NCBI GenBank assembly: GCA_007121455.1
Contig: SKKN01000005.1
Span: 1 to 64,000 of the forward strand
DNA: 64,000 nucleotides
Direction of reading: 5' to 3'
Source of the DNA: Gemmatimonadota bacterium
GTDB taxonomy: Bacteria > Gemmatimonadota > Gemmatimonadetes > Longimicrobiales > Gaopeijiaceae
This document shows positions 22,923-37,744 of this stretch, one piece after another. Position 1 is the first letter of the stretch; every line of letters begins with the position of its first letter. A program made the translations under genes and the position numbers. The notes below the pieces were generated by a model. It saw nothing but the letters and a program-made list of their open reading frames with translations. It ran no database searches and was not told the origin of the DNA.

Positions 22923-23531
22923 ATGGCGAGAACGACCAAGAAGGAAGCGATCCTGGAGGCCGCGCTGGCCCTCTTTGCGGAAAAAGGGGTGGACGCCGCC
23001 ACCACCCGGGAGATCGCCGAGCGAGCGGGGACCTCCGAGGGGAACCTCTACCGGCACTTCGATGGGAAGGACGACCTGGCCCGGACCCTGTTCGAGACCA
23101 CGGCCCGTCGGTTCGCCGACGTCCTCGAGACGGAAGCGCGAGACGAGGACGATCCCCGGGCCCGCCTGGACACCCTGATCCGGGGGGTGTTCACCTTCGC
23201 GGAGGACCACCCGGCCGCGTTCTCCTTCCTCCTGGCATCCCATCCCTCACACATACCGAAGGACCGGGACCTGCGTCTGGGGCCCTATCCGATGCGCCTC
23301 TTCGTGGAAACCATCGTCCGGGGCGTCGCCCAGGGCGCGTTTCGGCCGGTGGATCCAGTCCTGGCCACCGGCTGGATCGTGGCCATGGCCCAGCGGGCCG
23401 TGCTCCTGGCCCGGATGGGGCTTCTGGCCGACGACCGGGAGCGAATCACCCAGGAGACAGTGGAAGCCAGCCGACGTCTCCTCGCCGCCGATCCTGTCGG
23501 GCCAGGGGGACAGCAGCCCGATGACCGATGA
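22923..23531 (+). CDS. TetR/AcrR-family transcriptional regulator
   Basis: A 202-residue regulator. The N-terminal helix-turn-helix reads 'ILEAALALFAEKGVDAATTREIAERAG', then 'SEGNLYRHFDGKDDLARTLFE', the TetR DNA-binding pattern with the 'LYRHF' recognition part near residues 41-45. The C-terminal half should be the ligand-binding and dimerisation domain. It begins eight bases after the pump B stop, so it is the last gene of that operon and most likely represses it. About 60 bases after its stop the sequence becomes an IS256-family remnant on the other strand. Confidence 0.92.
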   Translation: MARTTKKEAILEAALALFAEKGVDAATTREIAERAGTSEGNLYRHFDGKDDLARTLFETTARRFADVLETEARDEDDPRARLDTLIRGVFTFAEDHPAAFSFLLASHPSHIPKDRDLRLGPYPMRLFVETIVRGVAQGAFRPVDPVLATGWIVAMAQRAVLLARMGLLADDRERITQETVEASRRLLAADPVGPGGQQPDDR

Positions 23532-23588
23532 CGACGGTCCAGGTCGACCCCGCTGAAGCAGCGGCCGAACCCCGCTCACGGAGGATCC

Positions 23589-24164
23589 CATGCAGAGCCG
23601 GTCCTGCTCGCCCAGGCGGACGTTCACGTGGACTCCGTCCGCCCACACATAGACGTAATCGACCCCGGAGAGGTCTCGCTTGCCGAACATCTCGTGCTCC
23701 TCCTCCCAGGTGCCGATCAGCCGGCTCACGTTCGCCGGGGACAGCCCGGAGGCGTCCTCGCCCAGAAGCACCGGCAGCGCCTCGCGGAAGTCTCCCGTCG
23801 ACAGCCCCCGCAGGTACAGGATCGGCAGCACCTCGGCCACCTTCGGCGAGCGCCTCATGTACGGCGGCAAGACTCGGCTCGTGAACTTCTGGCTGTCCCG
23901 GCGGTCGTGCACCCGCGGCGCTCGCACCTCGACCGTGCCGGCCCCCATCGTCACCTTCCGGGCTCGTGCCCGGCCGTTGCGGACCACCCGGGCCCGTCCC
24001 TGCTCGTCCTTCGCTTCTCGGTGCCGGCTCACGTACTCGGCCACCTCCGCCTCGAGTGCCGCAGCCAGCATCCGGCGCGCTCCTTCGCGGGCCAGGGCGT
24101 CCAGGTCACTCGAAAACTCGCCCTCCCCCTGGCTCCCGAAGGAGCCCTCCAGTACCTTCACCAT
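23589..24164 (-). pseudogene. IS256-family (mutator) transposase, N-terminal remnant
   Basis: From ATG 24164 about 192 codons match the start of IS256-family transposases: 'LAREGARRMLAAALEAEVAEYV', 'VRNGRARARKVTMGAGTVEVRAPRV', 'SPKVAEVLPILYLRGLSTGDFREALPVLLG', and 'VWADGVHVNVRLGE' with the first catalytic Asp near 176. Homology stops at about 23589; the remaining half, with the second Asp and Glu of the DDE triad, is absent. The frame then runs antisense into tetR without meaning. The element is dead unless helped in trans. The deletion may have created the present end of the pump B operon. Confidence 0.8.
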
Positions 24165-24805: not shown

Positions 24806-24937
24806 GATGTGTGCCAAATGTGTGCCAAAAACGGCCTCTGATAGCCGGACACAAAAAAACGACCCAGTGAGGATAACCGCATCACTGAGCCGTTTTCTTG
24901 TGGTGGGCTGACTGCGCCCTAGTGGAGGCGGCGGGAG
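24806..24937 (+). repeat. Copy 3 of the shared right end, overlapping the intact tmRNA 3' end
   Basis: This copy matches 8250-8382. It includes TGTGTGCCA at 24808-24816 and 24819-24827, the terminator, and the 15-base core 24923-24937 that is the real 3' end of ssrA. Its presence next to the functional gene marks the proximal junction of the larger element. Confidence 0.7.
24853..24895 (-). terminator. Terminator of ssrA, bidirectional type
   Basis: CAGTGA (24865-24870) pairs with TCACTG (24882-24887). On the minus strand the hairpin is followed by a run of seven T (A-run 24853-24859 on plus), about 28 bases past the tmRNA 3' end. On the plus strand TTTT-C-TT follows. Because this block also sits at 8297-8344, it appears to be carried by the inserted elements. 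Confidence 0.7.
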
Positions 24938-25276
24938 TCGAACCCGCGTCCGCGAATCGATCCTGCAGGACTTCTACGTGTGTAGATCACCGTTCAGTTT
25001 CGCCCACCGGCGGCCGGTGATCCACCGCGCTGGCAGGCTATCCGCCTTTGGATCTCGTCCTGGATGAGACGGCACCATCCGAGGACCAGCCTGAATCATT
25101 GACGTCCCGCTGACCCGCCTCAGGCGAGCAAATCAGGGGACGGGCTACCGCTTAGTTAGGCAGCCAGCGCCAGATCATTGTTGGCGTTTGAAAATTTCCC
25201 GGCGGTTTAACGAGATCACCGGAACCTCGACACGCAGCCCTGCTTTCACAAAACACGTCGAAGCCGTGTCGCCCCC
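24923..25276 (-). ncRNA. ssrA: Transfer-messenger RNA
   Basis: One-piece tmRNA of 354 nt. The 5' end GGGGGCG (25276-25270) pairs with CGCCTCC at the 3' end (24930-24924), with one G-U pair, to make the 7-bp acceptor stem; the T arm loop is GGGTTCGACTCCC. 'GACACGGCTTCGACG' follows the 5' strand as in other tmRNAs. The tag frame starts at a GCC codon and reads ANNDLALAA then TAA, so the added tag is A-ANNDLALAA, ending in the protease signal LALAA. CCA is not encoded; discriminator base is A. It rescues stalled ribosomes with SmpB. Its 3' end is the insertion target of the adjacent island and has been restored intact. Confidence 0.95.
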
Positions 25277-26580: not shown

Positions 26581-27033
26581 ATGAAACTGCGACAACTCTT
26601 CACGCTCGAGGGTGTAAACCTCGAACTGAAGGCCGAGACCAAAGACGATATTCTGAAGGAACTCATCCAACTTCTCGACCTCGACGACAAGTCGGAGACA
26701 ATCCTCTTCAAGACACTGAAACGGAGAGAGAACCTCGGTTCCACGGGGATCGGAAAGGGAATCGCAATCCCGCACTGTCGGTCGCTCGTCGTGAACCGCC
26801 TCCGCCTCGCCTACGGACGCAAGCCCGAAGGCGCGGACTTCAACTCGATCGACGGGGAGCCGGTCCACAACTTCTTCCTGATCGTGGCGCCACCTCTCGA
26901 AGTGTCGAACCAATACCTCCCGGTCCTCGGCAAGATCGCCCAGTTCGCAAAGGACCCGGATATCCCGACCCACCTCCAGGACATCTCCACCCCTCAAGAG
27001 TTCCTCGACCTGCTCGAGGAGAAAGCACCATGA
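26581..27033 (+). CDS. ptsN: PTS EIIA-Ntr-type protein
   Basis: A 150-residue IIA domain of the fructose/nitrogen class. ATG 26581 follows GGGAGG by eight bases; an upstream in-frame ATG (26446) adds only unrelated sequence. The phosphoacceptor region 'STGIGKGIAIPHCRS' gives His65. PtsN-type proteins receive phosphate from HPr or NPr and signal on nitrogen, potassium or envelope status rather than transporting sugar. The EI/HPr genes 6-7 kb away (32-34 kb) could be its donors. Its stop overlaps the next gene (ATGA). Confidence 0.85.
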   Translation: MKLRQLFTLEGVNLELKAETKDDILKELIQLLDLDDKSETILFKTLKRRENLGSTGIGKGIAIPHCRSLVVNRLRLAYGRKPEGADFNSIDGEPVHNFFLIVAPPLEVSNQYLPVLGKIAQFAKDPDIPTHLQDISTPQEFLDLLEEKAP

Positions 27034-32054: not shown

Positions 32055-33830
32055 TTAGCCGAGGGACAAGCTCCAGCGTCCAGAGAAGGCGGCGAGGTCG
32101 ACAGACGCGCCGATCCCCTCGACGAGACAGCGAGTCACGTCGCGACTCGTCGGAGCCGCCAGCGCCTTCCGCGCCGCTGCTCTCGCCTCCTCGACCCTGA
32201 ACTCACGGATGACCTTCCGCACTTCGGGAAGGGCCGGCCACGGAACCGAGATGGACGGGATGTCCAGCCCCAGGAGCAGATAGGTTCCAAGTGGGTTTGC
32301 CGCCATTTCCCCGCACACGCTGACCTCGATCCCCGCCGCCCGCGCGACCCGCGAGACCTGGTGCAACTGCCGCACCACGGACGGGTGGAAGGGGTTGTAG
32401 AGATGGGCGAGGCGCGGGTTGGTCCGGTCGACCGCGAGGGTGTACTGGACGAGATCGTTCGTGCCGATCGAGAAGAAGTCCGCATGCCGGGCCAACTCGG
32501 CTGCATCGAGTGCGGCTGCCGGGGTCTCGAGGAGCACGCCCACCTTGTACCCTGCGTAGAAGGGCACCCCTTCCCGCTTCAGGGCCTCCTCCTCTTCGCC
32601 CAGGAGCTCCCGCACCCGCATGACCTCCTCGATGTCGTTCACGAGAGGGAGCATCATCCGCAGATCGCCGTGGATCGTGGCACGGAGGAACGCCCGGAGC
32701 TGCGGCCGGAAGAGGTCGAGTCGGTCGAGACAGACCCGGATGGCACGCCAGCCGAGAAATGGATTCTCCTCGCGCGTCATCTGAAGGAACATGGGGAACT
32801 TGTCCCCTCCCAGGTCGTACGTCCGGATCACCACGGCACCATCGGGAAAGGCCTCCGCCGCCTGGCGATACGCCTGGTACTGTTCCTCCTCCTCGGGCAT
32901 CGAGCTCCGCCCGACCACGAGGAACTCGGTGCGGAAGAGCCCGATGCCCTCCGCACCATGGAGCCGGGCCTGGTCCACCTCGGAAGGCAGATCCACGTTC
33001 GCCCGGATCGCGACGGGCTGACCGTCCTTCGTGACCGCGTCGAGCTTCGAGATCAGGTCGATCTCCTCCTCCCACTCCTGCAACCGACGACGACGCTGCC
33101 GATAGACCTCCCGGTCCCGATCGTCCGGATCGAGCACGATCCGTCCAATCCGCCCGTCCATGATCGCCTCCTGACCCTCGGTTGCGACGCGGGAGATGTC
33201 GAGCAGACCCACGACGGAGGGGATCGCGAGCGACCGGGCGAGGATGGCCCAATGGGAGGTGCGGGTCCCGAGATCCGTCGCCACGCCGAGGATCCGGTCG
33301 GGATCCATCTGCACGGTGAGCGACGGCGTGAGGTTGCGAGCGACGACGATCACCGGCTCGTCCAACGCCTCGAGGTCGCCGGGCTCCGGCCGATCCAGGA
33401 GTCGATGCAGTACCCGGACCTGCAGATCCTCCACGTCGTTCAGCCGGTCGAGCACCATCGGGTTCTGGGTTCGGATCCAGAGCGCCTGGAGCTCGAGCAT
33501 CCGCCAGTCGAACGCCCGTGCTGCGCTCAGGCGGTTCTCCCGGATGTAGCGCGTCGTTCCATCCACGACTTCGTGGTCATCGAGCATGAGGAGCTGCGGC
33601 TCGAAGATCCGAGCCTCCATCGTCCCGAGACGCTCGGCCGCGATGCTGCGCATCTCCAGGATGCGACCTTTCGCCCATTCCCGAGCCGCATCGAATCGCT
33701 CGACCTCCTCCTCGATCCGCTCCGGTGCGATCGTCTCGTGGGGAACCTCGGGCACCCCCCATGTGAGGATGTGCACTGGACCGCTCACCATTCCCTCGGC
33801 AGCCGGATATCCGTCTCGAACCAGGGACAC
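32055..33830 (-). CDS. ptsI: Phosphoenolpyruvate-protein phosphotransferase (enzyme I)
   Basis: A 591-residue EI, starting at GTG 33830 two bases after the HPr stop. Phosphohistidine domain 'LGTRTSHWAILARSLAIPSVVG' gives His193. The PEP-binding barrel has 'EGIGLFRTEFLVVGR', 'IRTYDLGGDKFP', 'NPFLGWRAIR', 'GVLLETPAA', 'FSIGTNDLVQYTLAVDR' and catalytic Cys in 'VSVCGEMAANP' near 508. There is no GAF domain, so it is the sugar-type EI rather than the PtsP nitrogen type. It passes phosphate from PEP to HPr encoded just upstream. Confidence 0.95.
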   Translation of the reverse strand: MSLVRDGYPAAEGMVSGPVHILTWGVPEVPHETIAPERIEEEVERFDAAREWAKGRILEMRSIAAERLGTMEARIFEPQLLMLDDHEVVDGTTRYIRENRLSAARAFDWRMLELQALWIRTQNPMVLDRLNDVEDLQVRVLHRLLDRPEPGDLEALDEPVIVVARNLTPSLTVQMDPDRILGVATDLGTRTSHWAILARSLAIPSVVGLLDISRVATEGQEAIMDGRIGRIVLDPDDRDREVYRQRRRRLQEWEEEIDLISKLDAVTKDGQPVAIRANVDLPSEVDQARLHGAEGIGLFRTEFLVVGRSSMPEEEEQYQAYRQAAEAFPDGAVVIRTYDLGGDKFPMFLQMTREENPFLGWRAIRVCLDRLDLFRPQLRAFLRATIHGDLRMMLPLVNDIEEVMRVRELLGEEEEALKREGVPFYAGYKVGVLLETPAAALDAAELARHADFFSIGTNDLVQYTLAVDRTNPRLAHLYNPFHPSVVRQLHQVSRVARAAGIEVSVCGEMAANPLGTYLLLGLDIPSISVPWPALPEVRKVIREFRVEEARAAARKALAAPTSRDVTRCLVEGIGASVDLAAFSGRWSLSLG

Positions 33831-33832
33831 GT

Positions 33833-34114
33833 TCAGTCTTCTCCGAACTTCTGGTCGACCAGGGCCGTGAGGGCATCGACGGCGTCGGGCGCATCCGGCC
33901 CCTCCCCCCGGATGGTGAGGGAGCTTCCCTGTTGGGCTGCGAGCATCAGGACCCCCATGATGCTCTTACCGTTCACCTCGAGGCCTTCCTTCTCGACCAT
34001 GACCAACGCTTCGAACTGGCCGGCGGTCTTCACGAACTCCGCTGCCGGGCGGGCATGGAGCCCCATCCGGTTCTGGATCTTGACGGTTCGTACTTCGACG
34101 ACTTTTTCGCTCAT
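33833..34114 (-). CDS. ptsH: Phosphocarrier protein HPr
   Basis: A 93-residue HPr. 'RMGLHARPAAEFVKTAGQF' contains the EI-phosphorylated His20. 'LEVNGKSIMGVLMLAAQQGSSL' contains Ser51, equivalent to Ser46 of Gram-positive HPr and the target of HPr kinase, which is encoded in the same operon. The ATG overlaps the IID stop (ATGA), and EI follows two bases after its own stop. Confidence 0.95.
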   Translation of the reverse strand: MSEKVVEVRTVKIQNRMGLHARPAAEFVKTAGQFEALVMVEKEGLEVNGKSIMGVLMLAAQQGSSLTIRGEGPDAPDAVDALTALVDQKFGED

Positions 34115-34869
34115 GTTGCGATTCCACTGATTCCAAGGATGAGCACGCCGCCAACCACGGCGAGCAGGCCGGCTACGGCCCAGGCCCAGAGCTCCCTTCC
34201 TCGACCGATCGATGCGACGAGGAGGAGGGCGCCCACTGGGAGCCAGGGCCAAATCACGTGGGAAATCCCTGCCGCGAGGCCGCGCCCCACGAGGAGACCG
34301 ACCAAGAGGCCGACGAACAGAACCCCGATCGAGGCGATTCGCTCCGCGCGACCGATGAGATTCGCCCGCCGGAGGGTTTCGGCTACGGAAGGGCCCTTCT
34401 CGAGCCCAACCCGTACGGACCACGTGCGAAGCCGGAGGTGAAGGCTGTTGTAGACCACGAGAAAGGTAACGATTGCGAACCACCAGGGAGTGCCGAGAAG
34501 CGCGAGCGTCATGGCGCCGAGCAGCGTCGCCGGGAGCCAGGCGGCCCAGATGAGTCGGTCGCCGACACTTCCGAGCGGCCCCCGGATCGCCATCTTGAAC
34601 CTTCGCACCTCTTCCGGCGAGGCTCCGTCCAACTCCATCCGGGCCGTCGCCCCCAGTGCGAGCCCGGAAAGGTAGGGGTGGGCGTTGAAATGCTCGACGT
34701 GCCGCCGCAACGCCGCCCCGCGCTCCTCTTCCTTCCCCCCCTCCGCTGCTCGTCGCTCCAACTCCCGGAGCACGGGCAGGAAGCAGAACCCGAACCCGCT
34801 ACCGAGCATCGTACGATCATTCCATGACCCCTGAATCGCCAGGGAGCGCAGCACGAGCGATCGGCGCAC
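34111..34869 (-). CDS. PTS mannose/fructose/sorbose-family IID component
   Basis: A 252-residue membrane subunit. The opening 'RRSLVLRSLAIQGSWNDRTMLGSGF' matches the IID pattern ('R.....S...Q.SWN...M...G'), then 'HPYLSGLALGATARME', 'GPLGSVGDRLIWAAWLP', and C-terminal hydrophobic segments. Residues 'SLNPEQ' directly before the GTG also fit the family, so the true start could be an unusual codon a little upstream (ATT 34896 or CTG 34884). With IIC it forms the sugar channel. Slightly short for the family. Confidence 0.85.
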   Translation of the reverse strand: MRRSLVLRSLAIQGSWNDRTMLGSGFGFCFLPVLRELERRAAEGGKEEERGAALRRHVEHFNAHPYLSGLALGATARMELDGASPEEVRRFKMAIRGPLGSVGDRLIWAAWLPATLLGAMTLALLGTPWWFAIVTFLVVYNSLHLRLRTWSVRVGLEKGPSVAETLRRANLIGRAERIASIGVLFVGLLVGLLVGRGLAAGISHVIWPWLPVGALLLVASIGRGRELWAWAVAGLLAVVGGVLILGISGIAT

Positions 34870-34903
34870 CTGTTCGGGGTTCAGTGACGAGGAAATGGGG
34901 ACC

Positions 34904-35563
34904 TCAGGGGAAGAGAGTCGGAAGCAGGCCCAGCAGAATGCCGAGTACGAGGTAGCCCAGACGCCTCGACGAGGGTCCGAGTATGGAGAGGAGCATGCCC
35001 AGCGGAACCGCGCTCGCCAGGGCAGCGAGGGCGACGGTCTCCATCGCCCCCAGGGGCCAGGCGGCCGCGGCGTGCACCGCCCACGGGAGCCACACGGCGA
35101 AGCCGATCGCGGTCAGCCCGATACCGCGTGTGAAGTCCGCCCCCATCGCGAGAAGGTGACGCCGCACGATCCGGGCTTCGGTGAGGGATCGGTCGTTCGG
35201 GTCGGGCGCGAGCCGTCCGTTCCAGCGCCGGAGGCCGCGAACGCTCATCCCTCCCAGCACGGACCATAGCAGGCCGGCCACGAGCCCGAGCACCCATGCG
35301 CCGGGCCCGCCTCCCGACACGGCCACCGCGGAAGCGACGACCGCAGAGGGTCCGCCTTCGTGGAACCTCGCGCCGCCGACGGGAAGGACCGGGAGGATGA
35401 AGAGGTCGAGAAACGCCCCGACGAGCAGTCCGGTGACCGGATCCCCCAGCACCGCTCCAGCCAAGGCTCCCGCGACGATCGGACGGGACAGCATGAACTG
35501 CCCAAAGGAGGTGCTGTCGAGAGCGACGAGGCCCCCGAGCAGAACGAGGAGGAACAACTCCAC
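34904..35563 (-). CDS. PTS mannose/fructose/sorbose-family IIC component
   Basis: A 219-residue, highly hydrophobic membrane subunit starting at GTG 35563. 'LGGLVALDSTSFGQFMLSRPIVAGALAG' and 'GDPVTGLLVGAFLDLFILPVLPVGGARFHEGGPSA' match the IIC-Man N-terminal signature. It is about 40 residues shorter than E. coli ManY, with fewer C-terminal residues. Together with IID it should carry the sugar while IIB phosphorylates it. Confidence 0.85.
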   Translation of the reverse strand: MELFLLVLLGGLVALDSTSFGQFMLSRPIVAGALAGAVLGDPVTGLLVGAFLDLFILPVLPVGGARFHEGGPSAVVASAVAVSGGGPGAWVLGLVAGLLWSVLGGMSVRGLRRWNGRLAPDPNDRSLTEARIVRRHLLAMGADFTRGIGLTAIGFAVWLPWAVHAAAAWPLGAMETVALAALASAVPLGMLLSILGPSSRRLGYLVLGILLGLLPTLFP

Positions 35564-35572
35564 TGTGCGGCT

Positions 35573-36052
35573 CTACGGAAGGAGCGACTCGACCGCCCGC
35601 GGGGTGGCTCCCGGGAGGTCCTGAGCCACGACGTCGATTCCCCGTCCCGCCAGGAGTCGGAGGCAGCGAACGTCCTCGTCATCGAGGAACAGGTAAGGGA
35701 GCACCTGCTGTTTCCCCCGCCCGTGATGGATCCCGCCCAGGTTCACCGTCTCTCCCACCATGCCCCCACCCTCCGCAAGTCGAGCCATCGATTCCACATC
35801 CCGAGTGAGGAGAATGGAAGGTGTGGGGTTGGAGCGCCAGGAATCGAGCCGAGAGATCGCCTCGGACACTGGGATGAACTCGGCCTCGACTCCGGGTGGC
35901 AGACCCAGTTTGTAGAGGTCGCGCTCCCACTCGCTCGCGGCCAGGGCATCGTCCACGACGAGATACCGATTCGGCTGGAGGCGACTGCCCCAGCCCACGA
36001 CCACCTGCCCGTGGATCAGTCGCTCATCGACTCGATAAAGGAGAATCGACAT
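35573..36052 (-). CDS. PTS mannose/fructose/sorbose-family IIB component
   Basis: A 159-residue cytoplasmic subunit. 'LYRVDERLIHGQVVVGWG' gives the phospho-His14, and 'NLGGIHHGRGKQQVLPYLFLDDEDV' near 110-134 is also family-typical. It starts one base after the IIA stop, at ATG 36052, with GGGAGTGA as ribosome site, which argues against the longer in-frame extension. It receives phosphate from IIA and gives it to the incoming sugar. Confidence 0.9.
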   Translation of the reverse strand: MSILLYRVDERLIHGQVVVGWGSRLQPNRYLVVDDALAASEWERDLYKLGLPPGVEAEFIPVSEAISRLDSWRSNPTPSILLTRDVESMARLAEGGGMVGETVNLGGIHHGRGKQQVLPYLFLDDEDVRCLRLLAGRGIDVVAQDLPGATPRAVESLLP

Positions 36053-36053
36053 T

Positions 36054-36443
36054 TCACTCCCGGTTGGGGGAGATCCGGATACCCGCTTTCCCCTTCTCGA
36101 CGACCCGCGGCACGAGGGTTTCCAGGGGCATCTTCCGGTGAAAGACAAAGTCGAGCAACATCGGAAGGTTGGTGCCACAGATGACGGCCCGTCGAACGGG
36201 GTCCTTGCAGACCACCCGCGCCGCCAATGCACAACTGCCCGTCTCGAGGTCGGTGAAGACGACTGAAGGTCCTGGTCCCATGAGGTTCTCGAGTCTCTCG
36301 AAGAGGGCCTCGGGACCGAGCCCTTCGTTGCTGAGGGCGACGAGGGCGTCCCCCTCTCCCGAGATCCGGTGCACCGCGTCCACGAGACCGTCGGCCATCT
36401 GTCCGTGCGCGACCACCACACCGCGCACCTGGTCCTCACTCAT
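36054..36443 (-). CDS. PTS mannose-family IIA component
   Basis: A 129-residue IIA-Man domain. 'VRGVVVAHGQMADGLVDAVHRISG' gives phospho-His13, and 'VVFTDLETGSCALAARVV' with 'ICGTNLPMLLDFVF' complete the fold signature. IIA and IIB are separate genes rather than a fused ManX. It begins within the last codons of hprK (overlap of eight bases). Confidence 0.9.
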   Translation of the reverse strand: MSEDQVRGVVVAHGQMADGLVDAVHRISGEGDALVALSNEGLGPEALFERLENLMGPGPSVVFTDLETGSCALAARVVCKDPVRRAVICGTNLPMLLDFVFHRKMPLETLVPRVVEKGKAGIRISPNRE

Positions 36444-37401
36444 AGTCCTCCTCCAGATACTCCCGCACCGGTCGGAGCACCTCCCGGAGGCGTCGGTCGA
36501 ACCCTTCCGCGGAATCCACTCCTGCGTATTTGAGGAGGTGGTTCATCGCCACGACTTCACAAATCACAGTGATGTTCTTACCCGGATTCAGCGGTACGGT
36601 TACCTTCGGTAGCTCCACATCGAGGATCTCCAGGACGTCCCCGTCCAGGCCCGTCCGGTCGTAGCTGTGGGTGTCATCCCAGTCCTCGAGCTGAACGACC
36701 ACCTCGATCCGCTTCTGCTGCCGGATTGCCCGGATCCCGAAGAGCGCCTGCACATCGATGATGCCGACCCCCCGGATCTCCATGTGGTGGCGCTGAAGCT
36801 CATGCCCCCGGCCCATCAGAAGGTCGTTGCCGCGCTTGGAAGTCAGCACGAGGTCGTCGGCCACGAGCCGGTGGCCCCGTTCGATGAGGTCGAGCACACA
36901 TTCGCTCTTGCCGATCCCGCTCCTCCCCATGAAGAGCAGTCCCACACCATAGACGTCCGCCAGAGATCCGTGGAGGGTCGTCGTGGGCGCGAGCGCCACC
37001 TCGAGATAGGGCTTGATCCGGCGGTAGAAGTCCTTCGTGCTGAGGTTGGTGCGGATGACCGGAATGCTCTTGCGGGTCGCGATTTCCAGGAAGAGCTCGG
37101 GTACATGCTGCCCCTTCGTCACGAACACCGCGGGAATGGGTTGTTCGAAGAGCACTTCGAGTCGCGTGCGGCACGTCGCAGAGTCGAGCTCGGCGAGATA
37201 GGTCATCTCCGTTTCGCCGAAGACCTGCATGCGTCCGTCACGGAAGCGCATGGTGAATCCCGCCAGAGCGAGGCCGGGGCTCGAGATATCCGGATCATCC
37301 ACCGCCCGGGAGAGAGCTTCCTCCGCGTGAGTGAGAAGGTCCAGAGCCAGAGTCTCCGACTTGCTCTGGAGGATTTCTTCGATCGTGAGGTTTCCGTTCA
37401 A
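36436..37401 (-). CDS. hprK: HPr kinase/phosphorylase
   Basis: A 321-residue HprK. Start TTG 37401, seven bases after the hpf stop, gives 'LTIEEILQSKSETLALDLL'. The C-terminal kinase domain has Walker A 'GRSGIGKS' (159-166), 'HRLVADDLVLTSKRG' (about 178-192) and the 'MEIRGVGIIDVQALFGI' signature near 215-232; His144 precedes the P-loop as usual. It phosphorylates and dephosphorylates Ser51 of HPr in response to metabolites. In many Gram-negatives HprK acts without a sugar-transporting PTS, whereas here it heads a full set of Man-type subunits. Confidence 0.95.
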   Translation of the reverse strand: MNGNLTIEEILQSKSETLALDLLTHAEEALSRAVDDPDISSPGLALAGFTMRFRDGRMQVFGETEMTYLAELDSATCRTRLEVLFEQPIPAVFVTKGQHVPELFLEIATRKSIPVIRTNLSTKDFYRRIKPYLEVALAPTTTLHGSLADVYGVGLLFMGRSGIGKSECVLDLIERGHRLVADDLVLTSKRGNDLLMGRGHELQRHHMEIRGVGIIDVQALFGIRAIRQQKRIEVVVQLEDWDDTHSYDRTGLDGDVLEILDVELPKVTVPLNPGKNITVICEVVAMNHLLKYAGVDSAEGFDRRLREVLRPVREYLEEDYE

Positions 37402-37408
37402 GGCACGT

Positions 37409-37744
37409 CTATTCGCCTGGACCCACCACCTCGGACAAACTCGGACCTTTGTGATCCGTAGTCTGTGACCGTCGCCGCCGAAGGATCTTCGAGAGGCGCT
37501 CCACCATTTGATCGACCGCGGCCCTGTACTCCCCTCCCTCGCCCTGTGCCACGATGGGCTCCTCGCGATCCACCGAAAGCACGCCCTCTGCAAGCTTGAG
37601 GTGCCGTTCCTCCTCGAAGATCACCTCAGCGGAGGCGAGTCGTGGCTCGAACCGGGTGAGTCGCTTGACCTGTTCCTCGGCCCGGTCCCGAACAGCCTGG
37701 GGGATTTCACAGTTCCTGGTGACGGTCTGGACGCGCATAGGCAC
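37409..37744 (-). CDS. hpf: Ribosome hibernation-promoting factor, short type
   Basis: A 111-residue HPF/YfiA-family protein: 'VQTVTRNCEIPQAVRDRAEEQVKRLTRFEPRL', 'ASAEVIFEEERHLKLAEGVLSVDRE', 'AAVDQMVERLSKILRRRR'. I start at GTG 37744 (AAGGAG five bases upstream); ATG 37738 is the alternative. It dimerises or silences ribosomes in slow growth. Its place before hprK mirrors the hpf-ptsN-hprK neighbourhood seen in proteobacteria. Confidence 0.85.
   Translation of the reverse strand: MPMRVQTVTRNCEIPQAVRDRAEEQVKRLTRFEPRLASAEVIFEEERHLKLAEGVLSVDREEPIVAQGEGGEYRAAVDQMVERLSKILRRRRSQTTDHKGPSLSEVVGPGE

Follow-up and report, generated by a model that had tools for sequence, protein, structure and literature searches.

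Does a Gram-negative bacterium that carries HPr kinase/phosphorylase (HprK) beside a complete mannose-class phosphotransferase system (PTS) use that system to import a sugar, or only to sense one? The question is raised by a cluster of eight genes at positions 32055 to 37744 of a 64,000-nucleotide stretch of a Gemmatimonadota genome (assembly GCA_007121455.1, contig SKKN01000005.1, positions 1 to 64,000; hereafter the window). The regulatory PTS of many Gram-negatives includes HprK and a lone mannose-class IIA, for which an origin was proposed in 2008 on the strength of the genomes available at that time. We favour, with a probability of roughly 0.55, a working and chromosomally fixed mannose-class sugar PTS in which a phosphorelay is under the control of HprK and has a branch to PtsN.

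We hypothesize that phosphate would pass from phosphoenolpyruvate to Enzyme I (EI), to His20 of HPr, to IIA and then to IIB. The membrane subunits IIC and IID would import one sugar by the elevator mechanism of mannose-class systems, and IIB would phosphorylate it. By phosphorylating Ser51, HprK would govern the HPr that is available, and the same HPr would also phosphorylate PtsN. Loss of IIB, IIC and IID would leave HprK, HPr and EI, with or without IIA, to persist as a regulatory PTS of the kind that other Gram-negatives have.

The relay and its membrane subunits

All eight genes reported in the preliminary description are present on the minus strand, running from 37744 to 32055 in the order HPF, HprK, IIA, IIB, IIC, IID, HPr and EI, and all eight proteins score above the curated Pfam cut-offs in a scan of the window proteins. 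The genes had been called mostly overlapping, which holds for HprK/IIA (8 bp) and IID/HPr (4 bp) only; the other five junctions are gaps of 7, 1, 9, 34 and 2 bp.

EI (PtsI, 591 aa, 32055..33830) reaches 489.4 bits with TIGR01417 against a cut-off of 341.7 and has three Pfam domains at 326.7, 70.5 and 63.3 bits. HPr (93 aa, 33833..34114) scores 102 bits with PF00381, IIB (159 aa, 35573..36052) 121.8 bits with PF03830, and the mannose-class IIA (129 aa, 36054..36443) 30.1 bits with PF03610. HprK (36436..37401), which measures 321 aa if it starts at a TTG, has both its N and C domains (PF02603 and PF07475, 213.5 and 105.1 bits) and scores 349.4 bits with TIGR00679 against a cut-off of 240. The ribosome hibernation factor HPF (111 aa, 37409..37744) scores 44 bits with PF02482 (cut-off 23.7); its 34.8 bits with the NCBIfam model yfiA fall under the cut-off of 40.9.

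The phosphorylation sites are in place in EI (TSH), HPr (His20), IIA (VAHG) and IIB (RLIHGQ, in the context RLIHGQV), as are the regulatory Ser51 of HPr and the Walker A motif GRSGIGKS of HprK. We take these residues to have the roles under which they are named here. Both HPr residues had been noted, as had the association of HprK with a full rather than a fragmentary PTS, and the complete relay including IIC and IID bears this out. Across 82 complete clusters, a set that takes in two loci (L103 and L104) omitted from the pocket comparison below, the phospho-histidine of IIA is kept in every row and the IIB site is His, not Cys, in every row. In HprK, the Walker K and S, like the E and R of the signature motif, are present in 99 of 99 rows (83 including L080, plus 10, plus 6).

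IIC (219 aa, 34904..35563; PF03609, 48.7 bits over residues 2-103 only) and IID (252 aa, 34111..34869; PF03613, 108.1 bits over residues 3-194) are indeed shorter than usual, their E. coli counterparts ManY and ManZ measuring 266 and 283 aa. We modelled both subunits from alignments of the window protein with 64 of 72 and 62 of 71 usable rows. The IIC model (65 rows) has a predicted local distance difference test score (pLDDT) of 91.9 and matches 7xno_D with Z 19.0 and a root-mean-square deviation (rmsd) of 2.8 over 167 residues; the IID model (63 rows, pLDDT 89.3) matches 9wjr_G with Z 17.7 and rmsd 3.2 over 185 residues. In both cases the next family stands at Z 5.9, and the predicted folds are those of mannose-class PTS subunits, far above any other listed fold. 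With the E. coli structure 6k1h as reference, the alignment of IIC spans chain residues 6-226 of 247, and residues 1-201 of the IID model align to 20-216 of 273; one other chain, 9wju_G, covers the entire IID model with rmsd 4.9. These structural alignments place the differences of IIC and IID from the known subunits at the C-terminal ends.

Sugar pocket and the choice between transport and sensing

To estimate how much of a sugar site remains, we compared 80 IIC and 76 IID rows, identical rows omitted, with E. coli ManYZ and AgaCD, the pocket being defined by alignment and by PMC10783117 without ligand coordinates. In IIC, D16, Q22, R27 and G49 are unchanged in all 80 rows, E53 is conserved in 76 rows and replaced by D in the other 4, and P61 and G63 are each kept in 79 of 80. 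In IID, Q13, N62, H64 and P65 are unchanged in all 76 rows, while N17 and D104 are each found in 75 (the remaining row for D104 is a gap).

The exception is the column of ManY D25 and AgaC E26, which holds P in 42 rows, G in 33, A in 2 and V, S and I in one each, and an acid in none of the 80. This and several other points weigh against a working transporter. According to PMC10783117, two Lactococcus lactis substitutions close to the pocket, PtnC D25Y and PtnD N28K, accompany lost mannose and glucose uptake; these positions would correspond to columns compared here. The window IIC has D in place of E53, and the window IID has D at Y18, where 72 of 76 rows have Y. When two further rows are added, N17 of IID becomes S in 2 of 78 and D104 becomes A in 1 of 78. 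A reading of the window gene list shows no sugar-catabolic gene adjoining the cluster. As to substrate, some features lean weakly towards the amino-sugar Aga side; the Aga model is the best match for IIA only (AgaF, 49.2 bits, under its cut-off of 130), and IIB, IIC and IID favour general family models.

Plain decay of the pocket is not supported, as D16 and Q22 beside the absent acid are both invariant. D16 sits five residues ahead of the ManY D25 column, and AgaC likewise has Asp there. The site looks altered rather than decayed. The predicted folds and most of the pocket speak for transport, the D25 column does not. Because an acid is found there in none of the IIC rows, transport is not proven; from the sequences we consider transport by IIC and IID likely.

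The most serious alternative is that IIC and IID form a sensor: binding of a sugar or polyol would alter how far IIA, IIB and HPr are phosphorylated, with no net transport, and the whole cluster would then be regulatory. The uniformly non-acidic D25 column fits such a role, as do the want of a visible catabolic neighbour in the window and the persistence of the relay where IIB, IIC and IID are missing. A sensor, however, would hardly need everything that has been kept: the IIB phospho-histidine and IID N62 and H64 without exception, and N17, D104 and IIC E53 nearly always. We consider the sensor unlikely, though it deserves more weight than any other alternative.

It is also conceivable that IIC and IID serve a role other than hexose import, such as recycling or phosphorylation of cell-wall sugars, with the change at D25 marking a different substrate. 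An acid replaced beside the invariant D16 and Q22 would be expected of a changed site, and some Aga-like features point the same way; sequence alone cannot tell such a role apart from ordinary transport, and we regard it as a rather improbable account, about half as credible as the sensor.

One chromosomal slot across the phylum

The preferred reading, a chromosomally fixed transporter, also makes sense of how the cluster is distributed. Among named genomes we kept the best 80 of 88 HprK relatives; by title, 79 of these are from Gemmatimonadota or a subgroup and one from Rhodothermaceae (L080, a contig of 12,406 bases where HprK alone is matched by profiles). The full same-strand order HprK-IIA-IIB-IIC-IID-HPr-EI recurs in 70 of the 80 loci and a further 8 end at a contig edge; at L042 a run of 100 N follows IID and there is no HPr or EI within the following 7.8 kb. 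In 200 sampled genomes of the phylum, IID is found as a single copy in 162 and HprK is matched in 182 (181 above cut-off). This survey of gene order, which the preliminary description had suggested, shows that the cluster is not unusual within Gemmatimonadota and that its complete form is the norm in our sample. A chance or decayed gene set is ruled out by the residue conservation together with this recurring order.

The neighbourhood recurs as well. A GT4 glycosyltransferase is found at 75 of the 80 loci, metK (identified by Pfam) at 63 and HPF at 56, counts that are uncorrected for contig ends and may miss the short HPF. When pairwise distances at 57 loci are compared with those of metK, IIC and IID correlate with r of 0.86 and 0.91, about as well as HprK (0.87) and EI (0.81). 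This agreement, a correlation rather than a formal tree test, is consistent with vertical descent. A recently acquired mobile permease that landed by chance beside HprK would suit the statement, from an earlier study cited in PMC2405797, that mannose-class permeases spread mainly by horizontal transfer, and is very improbable here, as synteny and metK-tracking distances, with no IIC or IID tree behind them, disfavour a recent arrival. A plasmid search with IID returned 7 records (Listeria, Salmonella, Klebsiella), every one below 60 % identity.

No IID match is found in 38 of the 200 genomes (the last 18 of them identified by difference between the IID and HprK results), and 21 of these 38 have an HprK match. 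We examined the HprK region in 16 of the 21, that is, in all save G059, G061, G064, G151 and G152. Ten regions belong to the window's own family, six with HprK-IIA-HPr-EI and four with HprK-HPr-EI, and all ten are preceded by GT4 and HPF and followed by metK, the same slot as the complete cluster. These reduced clusters retain HprK, HPr and EI and are without exactly IIB, IIC and IID, and sometimes IIA too, the absence of IIA applying to the cluster only since no search was made elsewhere in those genomes. The other six regions come from another class (f10): five read HPF-HprK-HPr-EI and have neither GT4 nor metK beside them, and the sixth breaks off after HprK.

A first tree covered 83 loci with sufficiently long HprK, HPr and EI, excluding L111, L102 and cut loci. 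The HprK+HPr+EI tree used here is a quick tree of 44 of these 83 loci chosen by hand (31 of the 70 complete, 9 reduced and 4 f10), with L098, L099, L100 and L109 flagged for odd composition. All nine reduced rows group together in a single clade (100*). It lies inside a starred set of 22 rows whose other members are the window and 12 further complete clusters. A single clade of all complete clusters is rejected by the approximately unbiased test (p-AU 3.5e-5), which was run after the first tree had been seen. If f10, chosen on taxonomic grounds only, is taken as the outgroup, this tree makes the reduction in the window's family a loss. The IIA-less L109, L112 and L115 are scattered within the reduced clade, which suggests repeated losses of IIA.

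Taken together, these results suggest a wider hypothesis, which we hold tentatively and at somewhat less than even odds: one chromosomal slot in Gemmatimonadota may display the stages from a complete mannose-class PTS, through loss of exactly IIB, IIC and IID, to repeated loss of IIA, and thereby the origin of the Gram-negative PTS with HprK, IIA, HPr and EI and no transporter, the whole cluster being near the ancestral state. A difficulty is that the f10 class has HprK-HPr-EI only; it may have lost the permease or may never have had one, so that the whole cluster is one of two candidate ancestral states for the phylum. The preliminary description had offered a transport-competent, ancestor-like form and a sensory complex as its two readings. 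The former is the better one in view of the folds, the phosphorylation sites, most pocket residues and the nested transporterless form; the missing D25 acid limits what can be said for transport, and the f10 class without a permease what can be said for ancestry.

Twelve further genomes of the window's family (G045, G070, G078, G085, G086, G099, G103, G110, G122, G153, G161 and G181) match none of IID, HprK and HPr and are perhaps without a PTS relay.

PtsN, related systems and genomic context

The suggestion that the relay could feed a PtsN at 26581 finds support in co-occurrence. The gene is real (26581..27033, plus strand, outside the cluster) and its product, of the IIA-Ntr type, scores 102.5 bits with PF00359. 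HPr is present in 23 of the 38 IID-less genomes, and each of these 23 also matches PTS_EIIA_2 below 1e-17; among the 15 that lack HPr, only G002 and G193 reach a match below 1e-15. The association is strong (Fisher 2e-8 over the 38 genomes), in a test that disregards kinship and uses a threshold of E < 1e-15 chosen after seeing the list, which lessens its weight. Also counting against a PtsN branch, a strong PTS_EIIA_2 match is absent in 4 of the 162 IID-bearing genomes (G141, G147, G163 and G179). Eight of the ten reduced genomes in the window's family have such a match on the HprK contig, 8.5-9.1 kb away from that gene; the distance between PtsN and HprK in the window is 9.5 kb. PtsN may be a second acceptor of the HPr relay, and the co-occurrence is consistent with this.

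The genome of the window (95.57 % complete; the window lies on contig C78) has two PTS_EIIA_2 domains, that of PtsN (match at 26596) and one on C1. The latter (C1:179647-180042, L096) ends an open reading frame after Na/H-exchanger and universal-stress-protein (Usp) domains, and several relatives have PTS_EIIA_2 matches in comparably long frames.

For Proteobacteria, Comas et al. 2008 (PMC2405797) proposed an ancestral cluster with a mannose-class transporter, from which IIB, IIC and IID were later lost in most lineages. The present cluster carries this idea over to a second phylum, where reduced forms are found in close kinship with complete ones. The same paper offers a precedent in Desulfovibrio vulgaris, where a PTS of the rpoN cluster (EI-R group) combines a Gram-negative relay with genes for a putative mannose-class transporter. 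The window cluster differs in belonging to a phylum where the complete form is the norm and reduced forms occupy the same slot in one family. Its link is with HPF, whereas the rpoN link is absent: the sigma-54 (rpoN) match lies on contig C22. The reduced Gemmatimonadota clusters resemble the incomplete PTS of Brucella and the HprK of Xanthomonas (PMC2937029, PMC6916182; the Xanthomonadales cluster is from PMC2405797), where a relay with a mannose-class IIA has no permease; unlike these, the window cluster has the permease too. It shares with E. coli ManXYZ and AgaBCD the IIB, IIC and IID families and phosphorylation sites, and the ManYZ fold, and departs from them in its shorter IIC and IID, the absent ManY D25 acid and the presence of EI, HPr and HprK in the cluster.

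Full-length HprK and an HPr with the regulatory Ser recall the Gram-positive HprK/HPr/CcpA repression. The LacI-family model PF00356 has no match in the 95.57 % complete genome and matched 9 of 14 control genomes; with no LacI-family receiver of P-Ser-HPr found there, CcpA-type carbon catabolite repression is ruled against. Among the literature matches listed for Gemmatimonadota with PTS or HprK, judged by title and the start of the abstract, no paper describes this Gemmatimonadota cluster. A phylum with complete and same-place reduced forms allows relatives with and without the permease to be compared, and with them the role of HprK and the relay after transport is lost.

In the genome as a whole there is a single HPr match, that of the cluster, along with one EI, a second PEP-utiliser match on C46 within a 975-aa frame, and two counted matches to the HprK C-terminal domain (G000). 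PF02378, another type of PTS permease, has no match in this genome and is found in 10 of the 200 phylum genomes, for example G008 and G158 (L091, L092). An Rfam scan of the window yielded tmRNA alone (24920-25276). Near this gene, on the minus strand at 23247-24164, lies an open reading frame for a Mutator-family transposase that matches the first half of its profile only and is probably broken.

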